From assembly GCA_002221725.1 (NCBI GenBank), contig NJFT01000125.1, forward strand, positions 51,238 to 115,237: 64,000 nt of DNA. The letters are read 5' to 3'. Of the stretch, positions 6,439-52,580 are shown one piece after another. The notes under the pieces were generated by a model. That model saw only the letters and a list, made by a program, of their open reading frames with translations, was not told the origin of the DNA and made no database searches. The DNA comes from Scedosporium boydii (lineage: Eukaryota; Ascomycota; Sordariomycetes; Microascales; Microascaceae). Each line of letters opens with the position of its first letter. Position 1 is the first letter of the stretch. The translations under genes and the position numbers were made by a program.

Positions 6439-9400
6439 TGCGGCGAGGCGTGTAAGTGTATTGTGGGGCTTGTTTGTTGGGCGTCTGTGTGAGAGCTCGG
6501 ATTTTGCAGATTGGTTTGTAAGAGTCGTGAAAAGTAGTATGGGTGTGATGGTGCCGTTTGGTTTATGGGTTGAGTTGGTGGAGAGGCGAGCAGAGGAGGT
6601 TGCTTTTATACCAATCTCTCACCTGTGGGAGATGGAGGGTTATCCCAATGATTCGGGTCTGGTGCTATAAGAGCCAAATGAATGGCGATTGTAAGGTTCA
6701 CAAAGGAAGAGGCTTCCCAAGTAGATTGAGTGTTGAAAGGCCCAGATAAAGCCCACTGGAGTGACTCGAACACAATGGGGCTTCGAGACTGACAATGGAA
6801 AGAGGGCAAGGCAGAGCATGTGAATGAGATATTCCAGCGACGTGGAATACAACTCAAAGGGCTTTGAGGGGAGAAGGAAGGAGAAGCCTTATGCACAGGT
6901 TGGTCAGGGGAGTTATATCAACTTGACAATGATCACTCTCTCGAGGTCGCAAACCTCGACCATCCCGCAATATGGGAGGGCCGGCTCTCATTTTAAAAAG
7001 GCAGACTAGACCTGCAACTCTACCTTAATATCCAGATCCTTCCTAACGGCAGTGGAAGGAAGTACGAAGTAGTATATTATTCCAACTAGCGCAAGGAGCC
7101 TTGCAATGATACAGCAGACCTCGTCGCCCCACCGAACGGGACGGGCCACGAGTCTCTCGGGGAGTGAAGAGCTAGGGACCAGGGTCGAGTGGGAAGAAAA
7201 AAACAGGAAGCAGAGCAAAGAAAAGATTGTACGGCATGTGTGTATGCAAAGTCTTCCTCCTCATGGGCATGCAGCCCAATTTTCTTCCTCGCATAAGACT
7301 TATAGCTAGTCTCCGGCACCATGTTCCGTTGCCTCTTGCTTGCATGGTTCAAGGGGCGTTAGCTTCCATGCCCCCCCTTTCCCCCGCGTATCTATATGTG
7401 TCAATGTGATAGTCATATCAAGGTGTGGGAGAGGAGGGCTCAGCTGTCAACTTTTTTTTTCGTTTTTCTTCTTCCCTCTGGGCTGATAACCGTTAAAACG
7501 GGTGGACGAGAGAATGGGGGTCGGGAAATGACGTGCCAAGAAGAGGAAGACAGGAACGGGGTATACTAGAGATCACTAAAGTTTGGTTGCGACATGACCA
7601 TCATTACGAAGTAAGTGGTGAGCAACTTGTAAAAGTTTTTTTTTCTATTTTTCCTTCTTCTTTTTCGTGCTTCTTTTCATCTCCGCTCCACCTTGGATGG
7701 AGCTGACGTCGCATCGGGTGGTCTCATCCGCGGGACCCGGGCATGCGTGTGTGGTCTATCTCCTTAATCCGGGTTCATCGAACGGGGGAGCCCGGGACCG
7801 CTAGCGGAAGGTGATGCGCGGGTCGCCCTAAAAATCCAAGGAAGCAGGTATTAATGCTGCACACTATAGAACACACTATGGAACATGAGATGAGAGTGGT
7901 CTATAAAATGCATCTGTTATATCAAGGATCCTCCCCCACGCTCCACAGGGAAAATTTTTTCCCTCTCCGCTTTGGAAATATCCCCGGGGGGTATTAAGAC
8001 AGCAGTTAAGAACGTTCGGGATCCAGACGCATTCCAAGTCCCCAAGCTCGGGAATGGGGGCTGAAAATTCGAGCCGGGTTTTGCCCGCAAGGCCCGGTGA
8101 GTAAGAATCGAGGAGCACGGTTGTGGTCTCACTCTCTTCAATATTGCTTGCCGAATCTCGAGTCCTTTCCTTGAAAGGTTAGTTCTGGTCATAACCAGAA
8201 ACTTGGTACGAGTTCTTTCGGCGACTCTCTTGCGAATGCAACGCGGACGGTGTTATAGGAACCTCGAGACATTCCTCGTGTGATATTTCCATCCCGTCTA
8301 CGAAGTAGCTCACGCCAGAAGAGTTCTAGCTTATTGCTTCGGAGATTCTCTATTACCATTATTCCTTTATCCAATCCCATTCTCGTACTCTGCATTTCTT
8401 CGCCCGCTTGAAAAATTAAGATCAACTCGCGGGCCCAGGCTTTGACGCGAGAATCTCGCTCCATCGCGCTTCGAGGCGCGTCTCCAATTAATTTGAATCA
8501 TTTCGAGAAGTCGCAGCGCTTGCTTGCGTGAGAGCGTCGAGACGGGCTACTGGTCAGTGACCACGCGGTGGCGTCGCCGGTGAAGTTTGGGATCGCGGTC
8601 TGGTCTTGGCTGTCTGGCCTTCACGCCCAAGCTTTCACACGTTGTGGGCAAGGATTAAAATCACGGACCGAAGGACGGGAAGAGGCTGTTATCGGATGAG
8701 GGCGCATCGATCAGGAGTCACCACTCTGGGGGCGCTAGATGGTGTGCGGAAAAGAACGGGATTGATCAATTGATGTCGTTCCCCGGTCGTGTTCAGGGGC
8801 GTGGGCTGGTCATCCCTTTTCATAGCCCAAGACCGAGACTGTTCGTCAGTACGAAGTGAAGAGCTTTTCTTACAAGGGATATGATAATATTAGGGGATCC
8901 CTGATATTATAGCACTTGCAGGAAGGAATAGACCAGGGCCAGGCCAGATGATGCAATGGATCCATGTTAGCGCTCCAGACTCCAGAGAGCTCGTCAACCT
9001 GTCGGCATCACTTCATTTCCAATCGTTCACCGAGTCATCATCCCTACTGCTTGCTTCATCGATGCGACAGTACATCGAACCAGCGCAAAGGAGGCAAACG
9101 TTGCATGCAGCTTTCAATCAACAGTCTTCCCCGAACCGGAGTTTGTGCGCGTTTGGGACGGGTACGAGAAAAAGGAACGAAAAGGCAAGGATACGAAATG
9201 ACCAAGAACAGGGCATCGGGTCAATAACACGGTTTGCTATACATATTCGAAAGGTCATGAGCGGAACGGATGAAGGGAGTGCAGCAAGCTATTGGCATGT
9301 CGGGAGGACTCGAAAATACTGGCAGAAACATCTCATGGCGGAAGATTGGGAACGGTTCGACGTAACCGCGACTGGGTCCGGCCATATATATATGACATGA

Positions 9401-11662: not shown

Positions 11663-14483
11663 ATGATTACGATCGAGGCAGAGGCACCCATCCTTCCCTC
11701 TTCTTCAAACGGGGAGAGCTCTAAGACGCCGTCCAATAATTTACGCATTCTTCTCACAGAGCCTTCGGAATCCGAAGCTGGTCCTTCCGAACAACGCACC
11801 TCATATTACACACAACCCGACTTCGACGAATGGCCCCTCCCTCCACTACCTATGCCCCCCATGGGCGCTTTCGATGGGAAAAGAAAAGCACGGAACAAGC
11901 CACCTTCTCCCACCCGCACTCCGCCTCCGCCTCCGGTACCTGGGCCGTCTGGATCCGGCGAAGAAGAATCCAAAGAGGAGCCAAGTGAGAAAGAACCAGA
12001 TACCAAGGGTAAAGGGAAAGAGGTCGAGGAGCCACCCGAACCCGTCGAAGAAGAGGATGAAAATGCATGGATGCGCTATCCCCCTCCGAATTGTCTGTGG
12101 CAGGCCCCTCACGTCCTCTCCGAGACGATCCTCAATCTTGTAGGCACATCCATAGAGAACGTCCGCGCACGAGCTGCCGAGGCCGAGAGGGCAAGACAAG
12201 AAGAGGAAGGGGCGCAACAGAGACGGACAGAGGAAGAGGCTGCCGAAGCTGCGAAGCAGAAGCAAATGCAGAAGGAAAATTTAAACGGAAAGGATGGGGA
12301 GTACTACCTCCCAATCATCATCCCTCCGGAGGTCCCAATCCCGAAGCATTCCTTCGATGTCGAGAGGCTGCCCGGTGTGGACTCAGCTCGGTCGAGCTCC
12401 GAGATGAGCGGTTCGAGCCGCGATCCAGCACTTGGGCCGTCCAGTGGTCACAGAAGACACAAGCATAAATTAGCTCGCATCCTGAACCGGATGGGTGCTA
12501 GCGAGAGAGCGGAATCGAGCGCTATGGGCGCTGCCAAAATCTTCCATCGTCGGTCGGGGCAGCATGACGTCGAGACACAGAGCATCAAGAGCACCAAGGA
12601 CACGAGATTACGGCAACTCACTGCCATTGCGGCACTGCTTCAGAAGAAGCGGCCGCAGGGGAGTTTTATCGTGCATTCAGTCAGGGGTCCTGGCGCCGGT
12701 CCCCCTTCGCGCACTGTTTCGGGAAAGGGAAAGGGCAAAGAGAATGAAAGAGAAGCTCGAGATCCGACAGAGGAAGAAGCCGCCAGTGGAGAGGACGAGG
12801 ACGCTGAGAGTCCGACCACAATGTTTGTCAACCACCCCATTTATTCCCGCCATCGGCATCAGAGTCCGACCTAGACTAACATTCTTCCGTAGTGAATGTA
12901 TCTCCTGCTTCGACGACTGCCTCCCCAGCGAAATGATCAAAGGCCCCTGCCACAGCTACTGCCGCGACTGCTTCACCCGCCTCATCTCCACCGCCGTCCA
13001 AAACGAACAGCAATGGCCCCCCAAATGCTGCCTCAACGAAATCCCCTTCCAAACAATCTACCAATACATCCAATCCGACCTGCGCACCACCTTCGAGACC
13101 CGCGCCCTCGAGTGGCGAACCCCCATCGGCGACCGCATCTACTGCCACGACCCCGAATGCGCCGTTTGGATCCCGCCCGATCAGGTCGACGGGCGGACCT
13201 CCACCGCGCGCTGTCCCGCGGGCCACGAGACCTGTTCTTTCTGTCGCGGGGAGGCGCATGAAGGGACGGATTGTCCGCAAGATGCGGACCTGGCGAGGAC
13301 GAATGAGCTTGCGGAGGAGGAGGGGTGGAAGAGGTGTGCGCAGTGTCATGCGCTGGTGGAGCATAGGGAGGCGTGTCAGCATATGACGTGTCGGTGCGGA
13401 TACCAGTTCTGCTACGTTTGCGTGCGGGTGTGGAGGACGTGTAGCTGTACGGTGCAGCAGTTGAACGAGCTCAAGGCGCAGGCGGCGAGTAGAAGGGAGG
13501 AGAGGCTTGCGAGGGAGGCGGAGGAGCAGACGGAGTTGACGGAGGCGTTGAGGCGGATCGAGCAGTTGGAGCTCGAGGAGGCGCTGGAGGCCATTAAGCA
13601 GAGTATGGAGCGCGAGCGACAAGAGTCTGACAGGAGGAAGGTGGAGATCACGGCGCTTATCCACGAGGAAGACGTGAGGCAGCGGGAAGTGCGCGAGAAG
13701 TTTTCTAACCTGCGAGACGTCCTCTCCGATCTGCACGATAAGCAGCGCGATCTGCTCGCCTTCGAAGCAGACCGCGACCTCGAGGCCCTCGAGGCCGAAC
13801 GCACTTCTGTTCTCGAAAAGGCGCGCGAGGACAGCAAGGCTGAGATGGCGGACTTTGACGCCCTAGGACTGGCGCGTGTCGCCGATCTAGAGGTGGGGCT
13901 TACGAGGGAGTACGCGGCGCGGGTGGAGCTCGAACGAGCCGTCGAGGACGAATATCACGCGCGTCTCATGTCCTTCTACACCTCGTGGAAAGAAGCAGGC
14001 ATCTCCGCGGGCGACACGGAAGCCGAGGTCGAGAAATCGATGCGCGTGCTCCGCATGCGTCTCGACGCTCAACACGGAGCTTGGAAGAGCTGGCGCGACG
14101 AGGAGCTCGAGAGGGCGCGGTTCGCGGTCGAGGAGGAGCGGGCTATCAAGGAGGAGCTCCTCGGCACGCGACGCCGCCGGAAAGAAGAAGAGTATAGGAA
14201 GAAGGAGCGCGAGTTAAGGGACAGGGCGAAGGCGGGGCCGAAGTGGTTCGCGGCCGTGGCGGCTGAGAGGGTTAGATTGCTCGAGCAGATGGAGGGGGAT
14301 GAGGTTGAGGCTGGGGAGATGTTTGAGGGGTATGATGCGTTGGAGGTGGCCATGGTTAGGGAGGCGATTGAGTGGGGCGGGGAGGTTGGTTCTATTGAGC
14401 GAGAGGGTGATGGGGAGGGTGATGGGGCAGGTGAGGGGGAAGGGGAGGGAGATGATTCTTTTGTCGATGCGAGTGAGGGTTGA
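11663..14483 (+). CDS. RBR-type E3 ubiquitin ligase with long coiled-coil tail
   Basis: Two exons, 11663-12822 and 12893-14483. The 70-nt intron has a GTTTGT donor, a CTAAC branch site and a TAG acceptor. The product is 916 residues. Residues 1-386 are disordered, with Pro-rich and Lys/Glu-rich stretches. RING1 starts at C389 (ECISCFDDC), the in-between-RING domain is about 471-514, and RING2 is about 535-575. RING2 has C535-x2-C538, then Cys548 in EACQHMTC, which aligns with the catalytic thioester cysteine of Parkin/HOIP-type RBR ligases at the same 10-residue distance from the preceding zinc ligand, and CGYQFCYVC. Residues from about 590 to 880 are Glu/Arg-rich helix, predicted coiled coil, then an acidic Gly-rich tail. 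By family knowledge it takes ubiquitin from an E2 onto its own cysteine and then onto a substrate. The substrate is unknown. The splice makes a seamless RING1, so the model is strong. It converges with palC, 175 bases apart. Confidence 0.9.
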
Positions 14484-14658: not shown

Positions 14659-16173
14659 TCAATAGTACCCAGTACTAGTGCTCGCACTCCTTCCAACATC
14701 GCCCGCGGAACCAGGATACGCGTCAACGAGCGTCTCATCATCCGAGCTGGGCATGTCGCCGCCAAAGTCATCCGTCTGCTCCGGCGGCGCGCGCATTGAG
14801 TCCAAGGCGTTTCTATCCAGCGTAGGAGGTTGAAAAGGCTGGGTGGAGTGGATCTCGCGACCGGTGGGCATCTTTGCGAGGAGGGGCCCTGTTGGGGGTA
14901 TAGCTTGTGTCAAGACCTGTATCTCATCGTCAGCAGACAGATGTCCTGCTGTGTATATGAAAACATTAGATCTCACCGTATCGTTCATCTTGTTCCACTT
15001 CTCCGAAAGCATATCAATCACCCTCGTCTCCTCCAACTTCCCCCCATCACCCCCCCAATCCTCCTCCCTCTCCACCCTCCGATCCTCCCTCTTCTCACTC
15101 CACTCCTTCCTCAACCTCCCCAGGCCAAACCCCTTCTTTCCTTCTTCCCTCCTCCCCTCAACACCCAGCTCCTGCAACCCCGCATTCAACCAAGCGATCG
15201 CCGTCCCCGTCTGTCCCCCCAACTCAGCATCGACCCCAAAAAACCGACACGCCCTCGCACGACTCGTCCGCCTCACATCTTCCACATACCTCACCAGCTC
15301 CCCGTCCACCTTCCCCGCCAACGTCGACGTAGCGGCAGCTTGGAGGAGCGCTGAGGCGCGCGCGGCGTGTTCGGCTGCGGCGAGGCACAGGCGGGCGAAC
15401 AGGTGGGCGCGGACCTTGGGGATGTCCGGGGCCTTATACATCCATTCCTTGTCGTTCTTATTGCGGTCTTGGGCTACGACGGCAGGGTAGGGGTCGTCTT
15501 TTAGCACGGCGAGGAGGGTTGCTTCGGCGTGGGAGAGGGCGGCGAGGGCGCGGAGTGTGGAGGGGGAGATGTCGACGCAGGGGACGGCTTTTTGTTGGTG
15601 GTTCCTGTTGTGGGTGTTTTCGGCGCGGGTGGCGGCGTATTCGTAGATAGAGGCTGCGTCGAGGAGGGATTTCGTGGCGGATTGGATGGCTGTCGTGCGT
15701 TCGGCGCTACCGACCGTTGCTGTCGATGTCGTGAGGTACAGAGGGTGCAGCGCCGTCCTGGCGAGGAGGACGTGCACGTTCGCCAGCGTCAAGAGCACGA
15801 AGGATATCTCGTGGTCGAGCGAGTGGATCTTCACGCGGGGTCCTTCGCGGCCGGGGACGACGGCGTCGGTTAGTGTTGGTCGCCATTCTATCGTCGGGGT
15901 GGAGGTTTCTTCTACGCGGAGGAGGGGCGAGTCGGTGCGTAGGCCGGTGGAGAGGGCGAGGAGGTAGGGGAGGTAGGATGTGAGGGTCGTGGCGACGGCG
16001 GGGAGGTTGGGGGATTGCGAGGTGGGAGGGAGGCGTTTGTGCTTTTTGAGGGTGTCGCGGACGAGGCCTCGAGGCGTGCTGGAGGATTGGGGGAGGGAGG
16101 GGTGGGTGGGGGAGGTGTAGGAGGAGGAGAAGGAGAAGGAGGATGTGGTGGGGAGGGTGAAGGGGAAGGGCAT
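14659..16173 (-). CDS. palC: pH-response regulator PalC (BRO1-domain protein)
   Basis: Read right to left: exon 1 is 16173-14977 and exon 2 is 14916-14659. The 60-nt intron has a GTGAGA donor, a CTGAC branch site and an ACAG acceptor. The spliced protein is about 484 residues. The N-terminus ([19 protein letters not shown]) and the phrase LKKHKRLPP match the conserved start of fungal PalC. The body is an Ala/Leu-rich helical BRO1-like domain. The tail carries the typical MPTGREIHS and DDFGGD motifs and ends GYY. In Aspergillus PalC is recruited by the ESCRT-III subunit Vps32 to plasma-membrane foci and links the PalH sensor to PacC processing under alkaline pH. The intron length is a multiple of three with no stop, so an unspliced message would encode 504 residues. 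The known family favours splicing. Confidence 0.9.
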
Positions 16174-17088
16174 CTTGAGAGATATGTGAGAGAGTTGAGA
16201 TTAGTTGAGTGTGTTTTATGGGGATGAGAGTGTGGAGAGCATGATTAGAGCCAGAGACTAAGTGAGGTGAGGTTGTGATGGAAGCTCTGTTGTTTCTGGA
16301 AGGTGACGATGGAGCTTGGCTTGGCATGGATTACCCCACTGTCGTCATTGATTATTCCAGAGCATATTCAGCGATGGTATTTTGCAGGACTCCCCAGGGC
16401 CTCCAGGTTCATCAATCGATTGGCCAGTGATGAAGTGTAGGACCGAGATGAGTATATAGCAGGTTCTTTTCTAAAATTTGATTAATGTTTTCTACACATA
16501 TGTCCTGTGACACGATAAGCGAGAGTCGACCTGTCTTCCAACAAAGCATCAATCAATTGATAATAGAACGAGAGCGGTCCATTTTCACCTGACCCACGTG
16601 ACCTCTCATTCCACCTCATTGAACCGGTTGGTCTGTTACCACCTGGGCTTAGTGTTTCCCAACCACAACCCAGCACCGCAAAGGATAGCTGTCTCTTCAG
16701 TTCCTATCTGCTTCACTGCTTGCGGTCTCACCTTCGTTGTGGTTTGCAGGAGACACTCTATCTGCCTATTCTGCTGAAGTATTCGTCATAGAAAGGCAGG
16801 CTACATCCACCCCCTCCCCCCCCAAAAAGCTCTTAAGGCCACGGCAGTAGTTGGCATGAGAAGACGACTTAGAACCGCTTAGACATAAGAGAAATCAAAC
16901 CTCGATAGACAGAGAATTCGAAAGTCCGAAACGCCCCGAATACGAATGTGCTGGAATTTGACTAACAAATACTATAAGGCGGACCGTAATCCCACACCCT
17001 TCCTGCTTCACACGATGAAAGAAGGGGGGAAGTGATGAAAGACAAAGAGACGTAGGAATGGGGAAAGCTTGGGAGACAAACAATGGTT
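16174..17088. other. palC promoter and 3' flank of the NLR gene
   Basis: No gene seen. The left part lies upstream of palC and should hold its promoter. A C-run lies near 16810-16823. The right part is the 3' flank of the NACHT-WD40 gene, which reads toward it. Confidence 0.5.
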
Positions 17089-20000
17089 TCAACCTGGCTG
17101 CGAAATGGGATTGTCTCCTGAGAATCTCAGGACTAGGACCCGTCCGGAAGAACAGCCGATCGCAATACAAGATCCAGAGGTAGCCGATGAGGTTACCTGA
17201 TACTCCGGGGGCAACCGTAATACAGTTTCGCCGTCATATGTAATCCACTCGAGGTCGTTGTTGAGGCCATATCCTACAGGTTGAAGTAAAGAACTCGAAT
17301 GGTCTGGATTGGTAACAGTTTCGGCCGTAGAAGATTCGGTAGGTTGTATGTGGAATGTGCCAAGGCTGGTGTACAAACAGCCAGCTTCGTCAAATCGTAA
17401 ATATGAGACATCTTGGTCAACACCAAGTGTCGAGAGGATCCGCGTCGCTCGGCCCGTCGCCGCATCCCAGAGCCGTACCGTTCCATCCCATGAAGCCGAT
17501 ACAAGGGTCCGACCGTCCCGTGAGAACGCTACAGTGTCAAGCCAGCGTCCATAGCCCTGGGCCTCCTGCGTCGGTTGGCCTGTCGCCACATCCCAGAGCT
17601 GTATCAGTCGATGTCGCCCAGCTGACGCAAGCATCCGGCCGTCCATTGAGAACGCCGCGATCTCACCCCGGGCCAGCAAGGATTTAAGTGGGCTTTGGGG
17701 CAAGAACGCCATGCTCTCAAGCTTGACCCACTGGCTATGGTCCTTGAGCGTCCGCGTCACTCGCCCCGTCTCCACATCCCAGAGCTGTATCATCCCATTC
17801 CATAAACCTGACGCAAGCGTCCGGCCATCTGGCGAGAACGCCACGGCAAAGACCCCTCTGTCAGAACTCCTAAGCGTCTGCATCGCTCGGCCTGTCGCCA
17901 AATCCCAGAGCCGTATCATTCCATCCCAGAAAGCGAGTGAAAACATCTGGCTGTCCGGTGAGAAAGCCATACCCCTAAACCCAGACGAGTTGCTATTGCT
18001 CTCGAGTGTCTGCATTTCGTGGCCTGTCACTGTATTCCAAAGTTGTGCTCTTCCATCAACTAAATTTGATGCAAGTATCCAGCTGTCTGGTGAGAATGCT
18101 ACACTTAACACACTTGTGAGCGCCTTTCTCCTAAGCCAGCTACTCTTAAGCGTCTGAGTTGCCTGGCTTGTTGCTAGATCCCAGAGCCGTACTCCTCTGT
18201 CAAACGAACCTGATGCAAGCATTCGGCCGTCTGGTGAAAATGCCACGCTGCTAACTTGGTGACTATGGCCTTTGAGGTTCTGTGTTGTTTGCGTCACTTG
18301 GCTCGCCCCCATATCCCAGAGCCGTACTCCATCAAATGAAGCTGATGCAAGCGTCTGGCCGTCTGGTGAGAACGCTATGCCGACTCTCGACCTATGGCCT
18401 AGTACCTGAATTACTTGGCATGTTGCCACATCCCAAAGCCATACTAGATCATCAGATGAAGTTGATGCAAGCATCTGGCCGTCTGGCGAGAAGGCCACGC
18501 TGCGGGCCGCGCCACTATGGCCTTCGAGGTTCTGTGTTACCTGGCCTGTTGCCACATCCCAGAGCTGTAGTGTTCCGCCCTCTGAAGCTGATGCAAGAGT
18601 CCGGCCGTCTGGTGAGAATGCGATGCTATTGACTGGGTCCCCAACTGTGAACCTTGTACTCTTAAACCAGTCCTTTGGTATATGGCTTGCTCGGCCTACT
18701 TCTATATCCCAGAGCTGTACTGTTCCATCCTGTGAAGCTGATGCAAGCGTCTGGCCATCCGGCGAGAAGGCCACGCTGTAGACCTGGCCACTATGGCCTT
18801 TGAGGTTCTTTAATGCCCGGCCTGTTTCCACATCCCAGAGCTGTACTGTCCAAAGTCTTGAAGCCAATGAAAGCATTCGGCTATCCGGTGAGAACGCTAC
18901 ACTGGTGGCGTAGCCCTCGAGGGTCTGCATTTCTTGGCCTGTTGCTACATCCCAGAGCTGTACTGTTCCATTGATTAAAACTGATGCAAGCGTCCGGCCA
19001 TTTGGCGCGAATGCTACGCTCTGACTTAAGAAGCTTTTATGGACCAGTTTCCGCTTCACTCGGCCGGTCACTGCATCCCAGAGGCATAATGTTTTATTAA
19101 GTGAAGAAGATGCAAGCGTCCGGCCGTCCGTCGAGAACGCCACGCCGTAGAGCATATCGCCATGGCTCATGAGGGTCTGTAGTAGACGTGAATCCCAACT
19201 CTCATCGATGCCTGCAACAGCCTCGACAAATGATGGCATTTCTTCTCGGTACCGGCTTTTCACCTTGCTGGTCGTTGGACAGAATAGTAGTGCGGCAGCG
19301 TACGTCTGTAAAGGTGCCTCCTCGATGATCGACCCGTATCTAAGTGCAAAGCGTACGGCGTCCTTCAAGAAGTCAACAAGCTCCGTAGTAAGAGGCCCCG
19401 TGTTGGATATGGTTGGCTACATTTAGTTAGCAGGTAGAGTAAGATTGCGTTGTGATTCGTCATACCTGAATCCTATACAGAAGCCCTCTGATTGACGCTA
19501 ATCCGTCTGAAAGTTCCCGCAAGAGACTCAAACTCTCAAGCCAATGGGTGAAAGTCGTCCTCAAAAACTCGTAGATCTCCATTTCCTCTGGACTAGAGAG
19601 CTTGTTCCAGTGATCAGGGTCCTGCGCGTCGAGTAGATGATCAACCCAGTAGACACAAGAGTACCGCACCGCATCTAATGGGTCTGGTTCCGGAGGCTGC
19701 ACCTCGCCGGCTAAGAATCCAGGATGACGAAGCCCGTATATATCCTTTTTCAGGGTCCTGGACAAAGCCCGTAGTGAACGGAAGAAAAGGTCTCGGTGGG
19801 CAGGTTGACGGCTAGAAGGAAAGATCTTGTCTGAGGCTTGAAGGTACTCCTTGGCGGATTGATGGATGAGATAAACCTTGGAGCTTCGAATCGTGATAAA
19901 CGAGCCACATAGATGTATAGTCGTTTCCAACTCGTTTATAGGATAGTCATCCTCCTTACCCGCCAAGATCTGTAGTTCATGGAGGTCGAGCGGACGATAG

Positions 20001-21049
20001 GCAAGAGTCACTGCAGAAAGAACGCGGCGACAGGTTTCGAATTCTCTGCGCTGCTCGACTTGAATCATCATTCGACCATAGAGCGGTGTCAAGCCAGGGG
20101 GGATCTCATCCAGCAGCAGAAGTACGTCCCGACGCAGAAAAACGTTCTGAAGCTCTTGGAAAACGAGCGCTACCCAGAGAAAGGTTCCCTCGGCTTTTTG
20201 TCGCATCTGTCTTCTGACTTGATCTTGTATAACTCTATCATGTTTTATTAGCTCGAGCTGGGAGACCTTGTGGTCGATGTAAAGCTCGATGGCGTGAGAT
20301 ACGTGCTGTGCATTAAGCTCAAGACTGAGCCTTATGCGAGAGTCATGGAGGGTAAAATGGCGTTCGATGTCGGGCCTATTTCGACTGGAAATGATCCATT
20401 TGATTGGCACGGATACCGTCGTTGTTTCTTTGATCATCTCCAGAAGTTGTGGCAGCTCATGCTCGCACTCGTCGAGAGCGTCGATAACAAAATACGCCGA
20501 TGTGAGCCCGGGATCTTGCAAGATGGTGTTAAAGATGTCGCGTAGCGCATAAAAGGAGTTTTGGTCTTCGAACAACCGCTTCCCTGCCTCATCATACTTT
20601 TTCTTCAGAGGCGACATGAGGCATGGGTGCTGGCTGACAAGCAGGTAGACGAGGCCGCGTACAACCGCCGTGGCATTGTTTAGTTGAGCATCGGTAGCTT
20701 GACAGAAGAAGTAGGCCAGTTGGCCGGTGTTGGCTGTGGACTCGAGCTCGTCGATGATGCCGCAGAGAAGCATGGTCTTACCCTTGCCAGCGTCGCCCTT
20801 GATCCAGAGCAAGCGGCTTTGTGGGTTGTCTCGCCATCGTCGGAAGTCAGCATTCTCAAGAATCCAGTGATACGAGTCTCGAAATAAGCCGCCCTTCGTC
20901 TGCTCGATGCGTTTCTTGTCGTCGCGGGGGTCGGTCAACCGCAGGTCGCGTAGGCATTGATTGATGGCCGACTCGCTATAGTTGTTGGTAATGTTTCCCA
21001 CTTGAACTCTGGCCTGACCACTGGCCGTCAGAGCGTCTACCGAGTTCAT
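17089..21049 (-). CDS. nwd2: NWD2-like NLR: prion motif r0 + NACHT + WD40 repeats
   Basis: Exon 1 is 21049-19466 and exon 2 is 19416-17089. The 49-nt intron (GTATGA to TGTAG) is phase 0, giving 1303 residues. Residues 2-19 (NSVDALTASGQARVQVGN) copy the prion pseudo-repeat of the HET-S-like protein encoded divergently next door. A NACHT domain follows: Walker A in WIKGDAGKGKT (about residue 84), then AYFVIDALDECE as the Walker B region. The C-terminal ~750 residues hold 13 recognisable WD40 units of the type SVAFSPDG..LASAS..G.VQLWD plus a degenerate final blade, consistent with two seven-bladed propellers. By family knowledge (NWD2 in Podospora), ligand binding to the WD40 region drives NACHT oligomerisation. 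The clustered r0 segments then nucleate amyloid that converts HET-S. The reading frame is intact throughout. The ligand is unknown. Function is inferred from architecture and partner. Confidence 0.92.
20993..21046 (-). other. Prion-forming motif r0 at the NLR N-terminus
   Basis: Codons 2-19 of the NLR. Alignment by eye with the two HET-S-like repeats keeps the invariant Asn-Ser start, the alternating hydrophobic positions (V4, L7, V15, V17), the Gly at the turn, and the closing Gly-Asn. Placing the motif at the very N-terminus, directly before NACHT, is the layout of known signal-emitting NLRs. Confidence 0.88.
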
Positions 21050-21800
21050 CGTTCATGCAGCGCGATGCCCTACGGCGGACCGGCACATAATCGGGAATTA
21101 AAAACTGTTTTCAAGCGGGATTGTTGAGGGGTTGGCAATAATATCGGGCTTGGGTCTTTACGGTGGCGCTGTCAGGCTTGCCGCCGAAGTGAGGGGTCAG
21201 GCTGTAGGCGCCGGACAACCAATGGCGATGGTGGCCAGGCTGCACCTGCGACAGGCACAGCTGAATGGAGTAGGCATTTCATGATGGTTCGCCAGTCACA
21301 GGTGTCCGACCGCTGCCATGATCCGAAACTGCGAAAAGTAGATACAACCTTGTACATTCCTAGCCTTGTCGACGTGAATTGCCAGGGGAGCGGTCGCGTG
21401 TTCCAGCATGGTTACTTGACTCGGGCTACTATAGATACAAACGTAAATCGAAAAGTACAATTAGATTGATGACGATTGATTATGCGTGGAAGACCATACC
21501 GAAGCCGCGATACGTATCGATGATACAAGACATCAACAGTACGCTGCGAAGATGCCTCTCTCTAGCCGCCTCTATTCAGCAAAGCCAACGCGGCCTAGAA
21601 CCTTAGATGCGGCTATGCCACGCGGGAACAATTGTGCGATTTGTCGAACATTCATTGGTGTTTGACTCTCTTACAGGCAGCCTGGTCGCACATACATACC
21701 CCCCGCTTGGAGTGCCAATCAGGCGGCTCGGGCACACTCAACCCCAGAGAGCATCACTTTTCATCTCCCCCTCTCCACGGTCATAGCCCGACAACAAGCC
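21050..21800. promoter_or_regulatory. Shared divergent promoter of nwd2 and het-S
   Basis: 751 bases separate the two start codons, which point away from each other. No other gene fits. The het-S side has a TATA-like CTATAGATAC near 21430, but at about 370 bases from the ATG it is a weak candidate. A head-to-head arrangement would allow co-regulation of receptor and executor. That is inference. Confidence 0.6.
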
Positions 21801-22664
21801 ATGGCGGAACCATTCGGGATCATTGCCAACGTGGCCGGCCTCTTCAAGAACTGCGTCGAGTGTTTCGAGTACATCCAGCTGGGCCGCCAGTTTGGGCGCG
21901 ACTACGAGAGATGCCAGCTCAGACTGGATATTGCAGAGGCGCGCCTTGGCCGATGGGGTGAGGCGGTCAAGATCAACGATGATCCGCGCTTCAACGGTAG
22001 CGGGCAGGCGGACATTTCGGTTCGACAGACGCAATCAATTCTCGAGGAAATCATGCTCCTCTTCGAGTCTGCTCGGAAAACCTCGAAGCGATACGAGCTC
22101 GTCGCAAATCAGAAGGATCTGGTGGTGTTTGAGGTCGACAAGGACATGAAGCCCGTCGGTCGGGCGCTGCATAGTAAGCTGAAGGACCTCACCCGCCGGA
22201 GGCAGAAACAAACGAGCCTGGTGAAGAAGACGGCTTGGGCGCTATACGACGGGAAACACCTCGAGAATATCATCAACCAGATCGCCGGCTTTGTCGATGA
22301 GCTGGAGAAGATCTTCCCTGTCGAGGCCGCCTGTCAAAGGTTGGCCGAGATCGAGACCAAAGATGTGGAGGACGAAGTGATCCTGACGTTGCTCAAGGAT
22401 GCGGCCGAGGGGATCGACGCGGCACTATCAGATGCGACTGCACGGAAGATCGACGCGATTGCGGGAAGGAACTCCGCCCAGGACATTAGGACGGAGGATC
22501 GTGCAAGAGTCCAACTTGGCAATGTATTCACCGAGGAAGCCTTACATCGTGGGGTCCTTTGTAGGGACCAGACCGCAAACTCGGTAGAGACACTGGTGGC
22601 GACGGGTGAATCTGGGATCCAGATCGGAAATACGTACGGAGGCAAGGGGCTTTGGGATCGTTAA
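21801..22664 (+). CDS. het-S: HET-S-like HeLo-domain protein with prion-forming domain
   Basis: Intronless, 287 residues (the Podospora protein is 289). Residues 1 to about 222 form a HeLo domain, starting MAEPFGIIANVAGLF and including GRDYERCQLRLDIA and RQKQTSLVKKTAWALYDGK. Residues 224-287 form the prion-forming domain, with two pseudo-repeats: r1 at 224-241 (NSAQDIRTEDRARVQLGN) and r2 at 260-277 (NSVETLVATGESGIQIGN), then a tail ending GKGLWDR. In Podospora the C-terminal domain folds into a beta-solenoid amyloid. In the HET-S form this refolds the HeLo domain into a membrane-damaging, cell-death-causing state. Start: GCC-ATG-GC is a strong context and matches the family N-terminus. The residue that separates HET-s from HET-S alleles (33 in Podospora) aligns with Gln30 here, so the allele class cannot be read. 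The divergent NLR bears the matching r0 motif, which supports an NLR/executor pair. Confidence 0.95.
   Translation: MAEPFGIIANVAGLFKNCVECFEYIQLGRQFGRDYERCQLRLDIAEARLGRWGEAVKINDDPRFNGSGQADISVRQTQSILEEIMLLFESARKTSKRYELVANQKDLVVFEVDKDMKPVGRALHSKLKDLTRRRQKQTSLVKKTAWALYDGKHLENIINQIAGFVDELEKIFPVEAACQRLAEIETKDVEDEVILTLLKDAAEGIDAALSDATARKIDAIAGRNSAQDIRTEDRARVQLGNVFTEEALHRGVLCRDQTANSVETLVATGESGIQIGNTYGGKGLWDR
22470..22631 (+). repeat. Prion pseudo-repeats r1 and r2 (coding)
   Basis: r1 is encoded at 22470-22523 and r2 at 22578-22631, joined by an 18-residue linker. They match position by position at the Asn ladder start, hydrophobic core positions and closing Gly-Asn, though they differ at most surface positions. 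Each stacks as one two-rung layer of the beta-solenoid in the Podospora structure. Confidence 0.9.
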
Positions 22665-23484: not shown

Positions 23485-25325
23485 ATGGCTCGTCCTCCGC
23501 CCTCGCCGCACAAGCCGAGACGTCGACCCAAGCTCGACCAGGGCAAGCTCTCCAAGTCCGAGGCCCTCGTGCGCGCCCCGGCGTTTCCTCTCGCGTCGTT
23601 CCTGTGGCCGGCTAGGAGCTCGGTGTCGCAGTGGGAGGTTCTGCCGCTGATTCTCATGGTGGTTGGGTTGTTTCGATGGGCTGCTGGGCTTTGGGGATAC
23701 TCAGGTGAGCTTCCTTTTGATGCTAGAGCTTCCCTTTTCGAGGGCGGATTGAAAATTTTGGAAGAATTCCTCTTGCTAACTCTCGACCAGGCTTCCAGAA
23801 ACCCCCCATGTTCGGCGACTACGAAGCTCAACGACATTGGATGGAAATCACCACCCACCTCCCCATCTCGCAATGGTACTTCCACGACCTCGAATGGTGG
23901 GGCCTCGACTACCCTCCGCTCACGGCCTACCACAGTTGGCTCTGCGGCACGATCGGCTCCCTCATCGACCCCGCGTGGTTCGCCCTCTTCACGTCCCGGG
24001 GCTCCGACGACCCTTCTCTAAAAGTCTTCATGCGCGCCACCGTCATCGTGTCCGAGTACCTCATCTACATCCCCGCCGCCGTCATCTTCATCCGCCGCTA
24101 CAGCCGCCTCAATGGCGTGTCCACCTGGAGCATGGCCCTCGCTCTTACAGCCTTCCTCATGCAGCCTGCCACCATCCTCGTTGATCACGTTCATTTCCAG
24201 TATAACACTGTCATGCTCGGCTTTGTCCTCGCTAGTATGTCGAGCCTGCTCGCCGAGCGGTATCTCTGGGCGTCGGTGTTCTTCGTCGCGGCGCTCGGGT
24301 TCAAGCAGATGGCTCTTTATTATGCCTTCGCTATCTTCAGCTACCTTCTCGGCAGCTGCGTTACGCCACGCCTCAATTTGCAGAGGCTGATGGGTATCGC
24401 GGCTGTTACGCTCATCTCGTTCGCGCTGCTTGTTCTGCCTATTGTTGTGGGCACTCTTCACGACGCGAGCCAAGGAATCAAAGCTCGTCCGGACGGACCG
24501 CCGGAGCCGCTGCCACTCGCGCCGTGGCTCACGGACTACCTCGATACCGAATCGTTTTACTACCCCGTGCTGGAACAACTAGTCCAAATGGTGCACCGAG
24601 TCTTCCCATTCGCGAGAGGTCTCTTCGAGGACAAGGTCGCCAACTTCTGGTGCGCCCTCAACGTCCTCATCAAACTGCGCAAGTACCCCGCCGAACTGCT
24701 CCAAAAGGTCTCCCTCGCCGCGACGCTCCTCTCCATCATCCCCCCCAACATCATCCTCTTCCTCCGCCCGCAAAAGACCCTCCTCCCTCTCGGCTTCGCC
24801 GCCACAGCCTGGGGCTTCTTCCTCTTCAGCTACCAAGTCCACGAAAAGAGCGTCCTCCTTCCCCTCATGCCCATGACGCTCCTCTTGGCGGGTAAGCACG
24901 GCATGTCCAAGGACACCCGCGCGTGGGTGGGCTTCGCGAATCTCCTAGGTTGTTGGACGATGTATCCCCTCCTTGCGCGCGTCGACCTGCGCATCCCCTA
25001 CGCCATGCTCACGTTCCTTTGGGCCTATCTCCTTGGCCTGCCGCCCACGTCGTTCAATGTATACTTTTCCGATGCGCAGCACCTCCCCGCGTGGGTCAAG
25101 TGGGCTACAGGCATCGTGCACTTGGGGTTCTATATCGCCATGGGGGCTTGGCATGTTGCTGATGCTTATGTGGCGCCGCCCGTGGGGAAGCCAGACCTTT
25201 GGGTTGTTGTGAATGTTGGGATTGGGGCTGCAGGGTTCGTGATTTGCTATTTGTGGTGTTTGGGGAAGTTGGTTGTGGAGAGTGGACTGGTGGCGGCGAA
25301 GAAGGAGAAGACGAAGAAGCAGTGA
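23485..25325 (+). CDS. alg6: ALG6 alpha-1,3-glucosyltransferase (dolichol-P-Glc dependent)
   Basis: Two exons, 23485-23704 and 23791-25325. The 86-nt intron has a GTGAGC donor, a GCTAAC branch site and a CCAG acceptor. Product 584 residues. The splice joins WGYS to GFQKPPMFGDYEAQRHW, the conserved first luminal loop of ALG6. Its Asp (D83 in GDYEAQRHW) corresponds to the proposed catalytic base. Next comes WWGLDYPPLTAYHS, a family signature, then about a dozen hydrophobic segments. ALG6 adds the first glucose to lipid-linked Man9GlcNAc2 in the ER lumen, using dolichyl-phosphate glucose, before oligosaccharyl transfer. The motif set fits ALG6 better than the related ALG8. The N-terminal ~50 residues are basic and cytosolic, with a first TM at about 55-70. 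The C-terminus is Lys-rich (AAKKEKTKKQ), which may help ER retention. Confidence 0.95.
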
Positions 25326-48300: not shown

Positions 48301-49157
48301 GAGATCATGTCGCTGTCTTGTTCTATTCTGGGAAACACACTACGAAAACGCACAAAGTAGTAGTGGCGTTCCAATCTTTTCCCGTTTGGGACCGGGTCCC
48401 CTTGTCCCTGGTCTCTAGCCGACGACGAACACTCTCGCCGCGTCTAACTCACTCAATCACACGCACTCGTTTCCTCGATTCTGTCCCTCACACCCTCCTT
48501 CCCTCTTCCCACTCCTCCATTTCCTGCTGGCTGTCGCTATTCTCTCTCTCATCACCCTGCCGTCACCATGCACCATGCATCGTTCCGATGTTCCCGCCCC
48601 CAATGTACCTCTTCGAGCGCCTTTGCACGTCTTTCTACTGGTTCCTCACCTTGCTCGTGACAATCTCCCCCAACATAGTCTTGACCTATCTTTGTTCAGT
48701 TTTGTGGCGTTCTTGTCGTAGTTGTCGTACTATCTCGTGCCATCTCGTACTTTTAAGAGCCGTTCTCCTCCCCACCCACCCATCTCCGACTTGAGGCTGG
48801 CTTGTTATGTTAACCATGCTTGAAATCTAATCTAGTCTTTCCCTCTTCCTTTCTTTTAATCGTTTTCTTTTCTTTTCTTTTTCGTTTCTATTTGTGCCAC
48901 TTGAAATAGAGTAGACCGCCTTCGTTGACCGAGGCATCCTCTTATAGACACTCTTTCTTGATTCTATCCTTTTTTTTCCTTCTTCGCGCTGAGCGCACCA
49001 CCTCTTCCAGGGAAATAGAAACGAACTATACGAATACTTTTTAATCAACCTTCGAAAGGACTTCTTCTCAGGCAGTGCCTCACCCTTTTTTTTCAACGCC
49101 CTGGGCGGCGTTTCCGCTCACTTACACGACAAACGACAAACGACAACGAACTAAAAA
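45351..49157. other. Intergenic, long; leader of the methyltransferase gene
   Basis: About 3.8 kb without a supportable gene. Open frames at 46335-46766 and 47684-48418 have no domain and overlap frames on the other strand. From about 48400 to 49157 the plus strand is strongly C/T-rich and ends ACGACAAACGACAACGAACTAAAAAATGG, typical of a long fungal 5' leader. Confidence 0.45.
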
Positions 49158-52100
49158 ATGGCTGATCTGTTCATCTTACCATCGACGCGATACGAGCCCG
49201 CGCTGTCGTCGCAGGACCGACGTCGCGCTCAAAAGGGCCTTAATACCATAATTGAAGAGGAGTTGGACCCTAGGGAATCCAGAGGATCCCAGGATCATCA
49301 CATTCCCATTCAGATTCAGCAGCAGCAGACTCAAATTGCACACCAAACCAAACCCCAAACGACCCCCAAAGACCCCGCCGATGGCTTCCGGAACAGAAGA
49401 AACGACATGAGGATCCAGGCCTGGTTGTCTCCCATGAGCGATCAGTTCCCCACCCCGAGGGGATTCCCGACGCCGAGAGGCACTCACTTCCTCGAGGTTC
49501 CCATCTTCCCGTCTTCGCCTTCGTCCTCGGGCGCCGACCAGGAGGACTCGCAAGATGACGAGACCGGGTCCGAGAGCAGCTTTTCGAACTCGAACTCGAA
49601 TCCTTGGTACCAGCGGGACAGCGTCATGACTGATAGCACCGAGTTCGACGAGATGTACGATACCTCGGACGACGAGGCTAACCGCCGCCGCCACCACCAC
49701 CGCCGGAGCCGTAATGGTGGTGGGGGTGTTGGGGCTACCCTTCCCACCATTCCCTCGAGGACTTCCTCTCTGCAGAGACAGTCCGCCATCAGGATCAAGG
49801 CCATCGTGCCCCCCTCTCCCCGCCAACCCAGCACTCCCCGGGCTCTTCTTCCCAAGCTCGCCATTCCCACCACGGCTGCTTCCACCGCCGGCGGTCCTCG
49901 CCAGGACGAGATCGACATCAAGAAAATCACCTCGCCCATCGCGCCCACCCCGACCCTTTCCGCCACCATCCCGCCCAATGCCGTCATGTTCATGCAGTCC
50001 CAGCAGAACGCCGACATCCCCAGCGCCCCGCCTTCGCTGGACGGGAGCTTGACCTCGGAGCAGATGGCCCAGATGTCCGCGCCGCCTACTCCCGTCATGG
50101 GGAACGATGAGGACGAGCGCGTCGACGATGAGTGGACTGGTGTCCAGTTGCAGCCTGGCGCTCTTGCCACGCTTCACGCCCTTGCCGGTAGTGAGCGCAG
50201 CTTCCAAGAGGACGATGATTTGCATCATCACCACCAGCAGGAGAACCAGGTCATCGAGATTCCGGAGGAGCATCCCGCCCTCCCCGAGATGGAAATGCAA
50301 CAGCAGGGTCTCAGGCTCGTCACGAGCTTTTCCTCCCACCTTCGGCAGCGACTTGGCGGCGGCAGCGCTAGCGCCATTGCCGCTCCTGCTTCTCCAATGA
50401 CGGCGTCGCGCGCCTCCTTTGCCAGCCTCTCGAGACTCGACATCCCTTCTCCTGGTGGTTTCTTTGCCGATCTCTCGCCGCGTACTAGGCGGACTTGGGA
50501 TGCGCCTTTCGATGTGGCCCCGCCCACCTCGACTACCGCTGAGCAGTTCTACAAGGTCCCTTGGAACCGCGAGGAGGCGCCCGCTATGCCTCTTCCCCCT
50601 CCGCCTTCACGGGCGCAGAAGCAGCAGCAGCAGCAGGCTTCTATCATGGAGATTGTCGCCTCCACTTCTCCTCTCGTCGCTGCAAGCCCGAGGGTAGACG
50701 TCCCGGCCCCGTCTGCGTCTCCTTCGCTTTCATGCACCACCGGCAGTGATCTCGTCGAGCAGATTGTCGAGATCAAGGATGACATCGTCGATGAGGATGA
50801 CATGCCCACTGCTCGTCCCGTCGTGGCTCCCACCCCGAAGACGGCGACCTTTGAGTCTTCGGGCTCGACTGCTGCCGCCGCGCCGCAGACCGGCGAGGAT
50901 GACGTCGTCGCTAAGGAGATTGTTGGCGAATGCGATCCCGCTTACGCCCGCATGCAGCAGCAAGTTGCTCTTGCGAATCTTGATCGCACCGAGTTGTGGC
51001 TTGTGGCTCAGGATGCTTACCTCAAGCGCGTCATCTCTCCAGATGCTGTGGGTGTCTCCAAAGTTGAAGCCGGTCCCTCCGTGCCGCTCAAGGATGACCA
51101 CGATGATCTGTCGTGCGTGTCGCAGGCCAGTACCCCTCCCATGCCCAGCGCCGAGTGTAGCACCGCCGCCACGACCACCGCCACAACCACGGCTACCACC
51201 ACCCCTGAGAAGGCCAAGAAGAAGACGGTCCGCTTCTCCGAGACCATCGAGATGACCAACATCCCCTGCAAACTCCCCAGCCTCCTCACCAAGCACGAAT
51301 CCGCCTACTACCGCGCCTTCCAAGACTACATCATCCGCGCGCGCGCCCAAGACGTCTTCGTCGCCCGCACCACACGCTTCGAGGCCCTCCAAGCCCAACG
51401 CATCTCCCTCTCCTCCGCCCACCGCAACCAGCTCCTAGGCAAGTACCAGCTCAGCGTCGTCCCGCAGTCCGCTAAGAAGCGGCTCTCGACCAACGTGGCC
51501 CGGGGTGACGACGTCATTGTCGAGGACCCGGAGAAGCTGAGGCGGGAGAAGGAGGCGGAGGCGTTCTCGCAGATGGCTGTGAGCCTTTGGCATGTTGCGG
51601 CAATGAAGATGCTTAATGGGGGAAAGTTGATCATGGCGCCCGCGGGGAGGAAGTTGATGAGGCTTAGTATGAGGGCTGGTGTTGATCCGAAGAATAAGCC
51701 GCGCATCCTTGACCTTGGGGGTCAGGCTGTGTGCGATTGGGCGTGGCACGTTGCCTTGCAGTATCCCAATGCGAAGATCTACACCGTCACGACAAAGTCC
51801 ATTCGCCAGCTCTCGAACTGCAACGTTCGCGGCCCACCGAACCACCGCCAGGTCTCCGTGGACAAACTCACCCGCCTCCCCTTCGCAGACGCGCACTTCG
51901 ACCTCGTGTCCGCGCGCGAACTGCACTCCATCCTCAAATACACGGGCGAAAACGGCGAAGACGAATGGGAGACCTGTCTCCGCGAGTGCATGCGCGTCCT
52001 CAAGCCCGGCGGCTACCTCGACTTCTCCCTCCTCGACTCCGACATCATGAAGGCCGGGAAACTCGGCCTAGCCAAATCCGTCGAATTCGGCTTCACCCTC

Positions 52101-52580
52101 TCCCGTCTCGGCTACGACCCCTCCCCGACGAAACTCTTCCTCTCGCGCCTCTCCCGCGCGGGGTTCGTCTCCGTCCACCGCACCTGGACCTTCCTCCCCC
52201 TCGGGCCCCGTCCCGCCCCCGTACCCACCACCCGCTCCTCCGCCCTCTCGGACGTCCGCACCCACCGCCTCCAAGCCATCATCCCAACCCCCACGGGCTC
52301 CTCCGCCTCCATCGCCCCCGTAACGGGCCTCGTGGCCTCCTGGTCCTGGGAACGCTGGCTCTTGCGCTGCGAGATGGAAAAGGTCGCCGGGGAGCTAAGG
52401 CTCGCGGATACCGTTACCGAGGGCGAGGCGGTTTGCGAGGCCGGGAAGTGTTTGGGGGATGTGGCTGCCGTTGTGGAGGAAGGGAGGGGCTGTGGTGCCG
52501 GTTGGAGGATGTTGAGTGGGTTTGCTAGGAAGCCCGTGGAGGATGGGGATGATGGGGTTATTCGGATTGGGCTTGCTTAG
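49158..52580 (+). CDS. Large disordered protein with C-terminal SAM-methyltransferase domain
   Basis: Intronless, 1140 residues. Residues 1 to about 690 are low-complexity and probably disordered (Gln/His-rich and Pro/Ser/Ala-rich). A conserved-looking segment starts near 695 with KKKTVRFSETIEMTNIPCKL and a helical stretch around TKHESAYYRAFQDYIIRARA. The class I SAM-methyltransferase fold begins near 845: motif I ILDLGGQAVCDWAW, then NAKIYTVT, RLPFADAHFDLVSARELHSI, and CMRVLKPGGYLDFSLLD (post-motif III). This is a fungal-type domain. It shares the general fold with LaeA-like regulators, but I see no LaeA-specific motif and do not assign it. Substrate unknown; nuclear or cytosolic location is a guess from the absence of a signal peptide or TM helices. 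The ATG is in an AAAAAATGG context after a long leader. Confidence 0.8.
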   Translation: MADLFILPSTRYEPALSSQDRRRAQKGLNTIIEEELDPRESRGSQDHHIPIQIQQQQTQIAHQTKPQTTPKDPADGFRNRRNDMRIQAWLSPMSDQFPTPRGFPTPRGTHFLEVPIFPSSPSSSGADQEDSQDDETGSESSFSNSNSNPWYQRDSVMTDSTEFDEMYDTSDDEANRRRHHHRRSRNGGGGVGATLPTIPSRTSSLQRQSAIRIKAIVPPSPRQPSTPRALLPKLAIPTTAASTAGGPRQDEIDIKKITSPIAPTPTLSATIPPNAVMFMQSQQNADIPSAPPSLDGSLTSEQMAQMSAPPTPVMGNDEDERVDDEWTGVQLQPGALATLHALAGSERSFQEDDDLHHHHQQENQVIEIPEEHPALPEMEMQQQGLRLVTSFSSHLRQRLGGGSASAIAAPASPMTASRASFASLSRLDIPSPGGFFADLSPRTRRTWDAPFDVAPPTSTTAEQFYKVPWNREEAPAMPLPPPPSRAQKQQQQQASIMEIVASTSPLVAASPRVDVPAPSASPSLSCTTGSDLVEQIVEIKDDIVDEDDMPTARPVVAPTPKTATFESSGSTAAAAPQTGEDDVVAKEIVGECDPAYARMQQQVALANLDRTELWLVAQDAYLKRVISPDAVGVSKVEAGPSVPLKDDHDDLSCVSQASTPPMPSAECSTAATTTATTTATTTPEKAKKKTVRFSETIEMTNIPCKLPSLLTKHESAYYRAFQDYIIRARAQDVFVARTTRFEALQAQRISLSSAHRNQLLGKYQLSVVPQSAKKRLSTNVARGDDVIVEDPEKLRREKEAEAFSQMAVSLWHVAAMKMLNGGKLIMAPAGRKLMRLSMRAGVDPKNKPRILDLGGQAVCDWAWHVALQYPNAKIYTVTTKSIRQLSNCNVRGPPNHRQVSVDKLTRLPFADAHFDLVSARELHSILKYTGENGEDEWETCLRECMRVLKPGGYLDFSLLDSDIMKAGKLGLAKSVEFGFTLSRLGYDPSPTKLFLSRLSRAGFVSVHRTWTFLPLGPRPAPVPTTRSSALSDVRTHRLQAIIPTPTGSSASIAPVTGLVASWSWERWLLRCEMEKVAGELRLADTVTEGEAVCEAGKCLGDVAAVVEEGRGCGAGWRMLSGFARKPVEDGDDGVIRIGLA

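Follow-up and report, generated by a model that had tools for sequence, protein, structure and literature searches.

In Podospora anserina, HET-S and the nucleotide-binding oligomerization domain-like receptor (NLR) NWD2 are encoded by divergent adjacent genes lying 0.6 kb apart (PMC4344463). HET-S joins a HeLo domain to two HET-s repeats, r1 and r2, and NWD2 carries one N-terminal copy of the repeat motif (r0), a NACHT domain and WD40 repeats (PMC3321046, PMC4344463). This pairing has been known since a 2012 description (PMC3321046); by 2015, of 55 genomes with a HET-S homolog, 46 had been reported to carry an adjacent NLR with the motif (PMC4344463). These sources trace a relay in which ligand binding leads to oligomerisation, formation of an r0 solenoid, templating of r1/r2, opening of HeLo and membrane insertion (PMC3321046, PMC4344463). 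Here, we describe such a pair in a 64,000-nucleotide stretch of the Scedosporium boydii genome (contig NJFT01000125.1, positions 51,238 to 115,237, forward strand), referred to as the window; the surrounding assembly comprises 42.9 Mb in 442 contigs. In a literature search, no paper on Microascales together with HET-S and NLR was found.

The window encodes a genuine and intact NWD2/HET-S pair, an ordinary addition to a known family with one lineage-specific oddity in the membrane-inserting segment of the executor, the HET-S homolog. Established here are the gene structures, the domains, the motif match, the HeLo fold and the recurrence of such pairs elsewhere in fungi. By analogy with Podospora, the pair probably belongs to the HET-s (HRAM1-like) type and works by the same relay. 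A ligand would bind the WD40 propellers of the NLR, whose NACHT domain would then oligomerise; the clustered r0 segments would adopt a beta-solenoid and template the r1/r2 domain of the executor; finally, HeLo would open, its N-terminal segment would enter the membrane and the cell would die. All of these dynamic steps are carried over from work on Podospora, and the last of them, membrane insertion, is perhaps weakened in this lineage.

The two genes lie head to head in the Podospora order, with a somewhat larger gap of 0.75 kb (Table 1). The predicted NLR product comprises 1303 residues from two exons without internal stops. Two alternative acceptors, giving introns of 85 and 103 bases, keep the frame as well. 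The NLR start codon is the second codon past an in-frame stop, and the next methionine is residue 93. A start below r0, which had been named in advance as fatal to the proposal, is ruled out, since it would sit directly after the Walker A motif and remove it. Repeated DNA at the locus is likewise ruled out: neither the intergenic region nor either flank has a second copy in the genome, each matching itself alone in a search that skips simple and very common words. A first-pass annotation, made from the bases alone, had proposed this divergent pair with its 751-base gap, two intact frames, an r0 matching both executor repeats and about 14 WD40 blades, and all of these points hold.

Table 1. Features of the pair and its downstream neighbour (positions within the window).
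Feature	Position	Strand	Remarks
NLR exon 2	17089..19416	-	WD40 sensor exon; stop codon 17089-17091; open frame, Pfam WD40
13 canonical WD40 blades	17464..19206	-	NLR residues 599-1179; blade-end spacing 39-62
Predicted NLR intron	19417..19465	-	49 bases, GTATGA...TAG (GT..AG), phase 0; splice signals and frame
NLR exon 1	19466..21049	-	528 residues; r0 motif and NACHT/NPHP3_N; splice model, Pfam
Walker A motif GDAGKGKT	20774..20797	-	NLR residues 85-92
r0 amyloid motif	20993..21046	-	NLR residues 2-19; PF17108 and PF11558 (both sub-threshold), shuffles
Intergenic region common to the divergent pair	21050..21800		751 bases between start codons
Executor, HET-S homolog	21801..22664	+	287 residues; ATG at 21801, stop ends at 22664; frame, Pfam, homologs
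N-terminal membrane-inserting segment	21813..21866	+	residues 5-22; role from PMC3531502
HeLo domain	21816..22391	+	residues 6-197; Pfam E 7.8e-53, fold
HET-s prion-forming domain match	22446..22640	+	residues 216-280; HET-s_218-289 E 2.5e-26
Pseudo-repeat r1	22470..22532	+	residues 224-244
Pseudo-repeat r2	22578..22640	+	residues 260-280
ALG6-type alpha-1,3-glucosyltransferase	23727-25325	+	Pfam; open frame begins 1.1 kb downstream

The architecture of both proteins is that of the Podospora pair. Pfam matches in the NLR comprise NPHP3_N/NACHT and WD40, with a Walker B-like stretch at residue 188 beside Walker A, so that this adjoining gene of the signal-transduction ATPases with numerous domains (STAND)/NLR class combines a NACHT NTPase and WD40 repeats with a single N-terminal repeat of the executor's own motif. 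Aligned against the executor, this r0 (NLR residues 2-22) scores 52 at r2 (9 of 21 residues identical) and 41 at r1 (8 of 21), the next best place reaching 22. None of 2000 shuffled versions of r0 reached 52 (maximum 37), which rules out a chance match. Across the 42.9 Mb of the host genome, the profiles PF11558 and PF17108 each match two places only, both in the window; one of these four matches, that of PF11558 in the executor, exceeds its cut-off. In the executor, a HET-s prion domain with two repeats lies after the HeLo domain and retains the solenoid positions (Asn ladders, glycines, core hydrophobics and the position-13 charge) with two departures, Asp at position 10 of r1 and Gly at position 13 of r2, which are shared by 23 and 22 of the 30 closest homologs, respectively. 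Since the residues needed for HET-s prion function are mostly retained, the exceptions being the positions of K270, F286 and R274, the amyloid part of the executor looks competent.

Several observations nevertheless weigh against a Podospora-like relay. The r0-type profile PF17108, with 23 positions, scores 16.6 bits on NLR residues 2-19 against a cut-off of 24.3, and it also gives sub-threshold matches in 4 of 14 control genomes (PF11558 in none); the case for r0 therefore rests on its position, the shuffles and the adjacency of the two genes. The shortness of the motif and the behaviour of this profile would suit a scenario of chance adjacency of the two genes with a convergent r0 match, but the shuffle result and the confinement of the motif matches to these two places make that scenario extremely improbable. 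It is further opposed by Cladorrhinum samala and Fusarium oxysporum, in each of which a HET-S protein and an r0-bearing NLR are listed on contigs of equal size. Equal size is itself an indirect sign that the genes share a contig, and there are just two such coincidences among the matches listed. The charge complementarity between r0 and r2 noted for Podospora NWD2 (PMC4344463) is absent in the window pair, where both repeats have an acidic residue at position 4 and an uncharged one at position 9. In addition, the positions of K229, K270, R274 and F286 are changed, with Thr at K270, Gly at R274 and Leu at F286. In HET-s, alanine at K270 or F286 harmed function, R274A alone was tolerated and the R238A/R274A double mutant was null (PMC4055769). 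Of the three salt bridges between the HET-s repeats, the executor cannot form K229-E265 or E234-K270 and can form R236-E272; a HET-s mutant lacking all three was active in a basic assay and impaired in finer ones (PMC4055769).

A further departure concerns the membrane-inserting segment, which is short and charged. HET-S is reported to act via membrane insertion of an N-terminal segment of about 34 residues (PMC3531502). Homologs were taken as the best 120 of 263 matches, and 104 of the 121 aligned proteins were retained (16 did not start at the methionine column of the window executor, and P0020 lacks the invariant Cys). In the window executor, the segment has three residues fewer than in most aligned homologs and in the solved Podospora proteins, including HET-S. 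Met1 lies 18 residues from the invariant Cys, a spacing found in 6 of the 104; it is 20-21 in 95 and 15 in one, and two artefacts have 25 and 50. Furthermore, position 16, which is Asn in 93 of the 104 and in Podospora HET-S, is Lys in three, namely the window executor and its nearest relatives P0001 and P0002. A hidden intron behind the gap is ruled out, as the coding sequence runs through without interruption and the gap recurs in P0001 and P0002. Because these two relatives share both features and are 86-90% identical to the executor over its full length, the variant is, to judge from the alignment, inherited and not a fresh defect.

The best 19-residue Kyte-Doolittle mean of the N-terminus is 1.13, compared with 1.36 for the non-killing Podospora HET-s and 1.81 for HET-S, and on a biological scale, where higher sums are worse, the values are 9.8, 7.5 and 3.2, respectively; both are crude measures. 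Among 102 proteins the window executor, P0001 and P0002 rank as the lowest three, after removal of two artefacts lying lower still, P0093, whose model starts at the wrong place, and P0033, a PDB construct with a tag. The short Lys-bearing segment and a hydropathy below that of HET-s suggest that killing may be weak or lost, its strength being uncertain. The first-pass description of the module as complete stands for the reading frames and amyloid motifs, and the expectation that it is probably functional is half supported: the amyloid residues are mostly retained, but for the killing step it claims too much.

These data bear on the alternative that the relay works but ends in a non-killing executor resembling Podospora HET-s, which would form amyloid without membrane insertion and serve as a decoy, sink or prion. 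Like that prion allele, the window executor has a weak predicted membrane segment and an acidic residue at the position of D23, and in Podospora variants transmembrane prediction by TMHMM correlated near-perfectly with killing (PMC3531502). However, that correlation has an exception, H33P, and our sums are cruder than TMHMM scores. Shortening alone does not remove hydropathy and is thus not decisive, given that the other short-segment homologs P0010, P0038, P0046 and P0107 reach 1.38-1.63. Moreover, unlike in HET-s, the P33 position is Gln, and the NLR is intact, in contrast to wild-type het-s strains, where nwd2 has become a pseudogene (PMC4344463). On balance, we regard a non-killing executor as unlikely, although it is the most serious of the alternatives, and favour the Podospora-type relay.

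The sensor of the NLR is irregular. LWD or LWN occurs 14 times, once within a blade, leaving 13 canonical blade ends followed by a non-canonical C-terminal stretch, and four 42-residue units show a mean identity of 0.50. NLR homologs were examined as the best 120 of 4060 matches, in which r0 scored at least 35 in five; P0122, with a score of 23, was recognised by eye. Unit identity is higher in P0122 (0.89, three units), P0175 (0.73, 13 units) and P0232 (0.76, four units). For the NLRs of C. samala and F. oxysporum the values are 0.89 and 0.73, and over residues 1-530 these proteins are 66% and 48% identical to the window NLR. Such irregular blades and spacing, together with the loss of two of the three inter-repeat salt bridges, could speak for a decaying pair whose frames are open by happenstance and which is no longer under selection. 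The r0-bearing NLRs P0173 (0.42) and P0167 (0.57) are, however, equally diverged, so that the irregular sensor is not peculiar to the window NLR. All 1303 + 287 codons are open, the dinucleotide indices of the repeat-induced point mutation (RIP) type are near whole-window values for both genes, and the executor is conserved over its full length in two relatives with the same deletion. We therefore consider decay very unlikely. NLRs of the HET-D/HET-E type, with the effector domain in cis, resemble the window NLR in their NACHT and WD40 parts, but the N-terminus of many of those listed holds a HET (PF06985) or another domain where the window NLR has r0. The NACHT exon has 83 matching places across its own genome.

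The HET-S gene and its neighbour point to different affinities. The adjacent ALG6, of the sordariomycete kind, is 97-98% identical to two other proteins and 78% to that of Cephalotrichum, a genus of Microascales. ALG6 trees place the window clade with Cephalotrichum and metagenome proteins (support 99), and grouping of the window with Sordariales is rejected (approximately unbiased (AU) test, p 0.005); host placement thus comes from this one housekeeping gene. Conversely, HET-S of the window is 69-74% identical to that of three Sordariales species, which are 71-79% identical among themselves, and by sequence it appears nearly as close to them as they are to one another. In agreement with this, the HET-S/ALG6 distance ratio is 0.55-0.91 between the window clade and four Sordariales (12 pairs), 0.67-1.47 within Sordariales (6 pairs), 1.42-1.95 between the window clade and other orders, and from 1.06 upwards for between-order pairs without the window clade; in this comparison the two genes of Cladorrhinum, Phialemonium and Colletotrichum are paired at genus level only, and the ALG6 proteins of the two close relatives are assigned by database source only.

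HET-S trees were built from 54 and 34 of the 121 proteins and ALG6 trees from 42 and 33, picked by name and spread. AU tests reject neither a clade of 13 "Sordariales-type" HET-S proteins without the window clade (p 0.236) nor one including it (p 0.145); among these 13 are a protein of Monosporascus (Xylariales) and two from metagenomes. Joining the window clade to a pair of long-branched Dactylonectria proteins is not rejected (p 0.346), and joining it to three Hypocreales proteins is borderline (p 0.049). Other HET-S proteins likewise cross orders in the tree. The pattern is suggestive of horizontal transfer; transfer, hidden paralogy and old paralogs with loss are all possible origins of the similarity. 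Clustering of the genes is said to favour inheritance of such pathways both vertically and by transposition-driven horizontal transfer (PMC9815663). No passage on het-S transfer between orders was found on looking for mentions of horizontal transfer in PMC4344463, where the word occurs in a reference title only, PMC9815663 and PMC12258605. It is an unlikely proposition that a non-Sordariales lineage carries a Sordariales-type pair, perhaps horizontally acquired, and has kept the amyloid relay over some time with a shortened and charged executor segment; if true, amyloid signalling would here be naturally uncoupled from killing, or membrane entry would be altered.

Further observations concern HET-S-like proteins and the surroundings of the pair. 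The HET-S homolog P0004 (Monosporascus sp. mg162) is annotated with a C-terminal endonuclease/reverse-transcriptase domain (PF14529, E 9.4e-9), perhaps from a mobile element beside the gene or a gene-model fusion. On contig C258 of the host genome, a second HeLo protein (8451-9341, minus strand; E 7.9e-17), whose HeLo start falls outside the open frame, carries at its end two short stretches that resemble each other and show a hydrophobic-Q/H-Q-G-D pattern, which by eye recalls a different HRAM class. The genome search listed no NACHT match on C258, but the contig ends about 0.6 kb from this protein. Within the window, a BRO1-domain protein (14662-16200, minus strand; PF03097, 36.1 bits, cut-off 35.1) adjoins the NLR, and an IBR-type (RING-like) protein whose C-terminal part is long and charged lies at 12486-14480 (plus strand; PF01485). 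A methyltransferase domain (PF08241) and DUF7896 are found in large open frames at 49155-52577 (plus strand) and 54017-56623 (minus strand).

The pair mainly adds one more member to a well-studied family, in a host that the gene beside the pair groups with Microascales. Its HeLo segment is a natural variant that could be used to probe, in natural proteins, the link between predicted segment strength and killing, which has been proposed from Podospora alleles.
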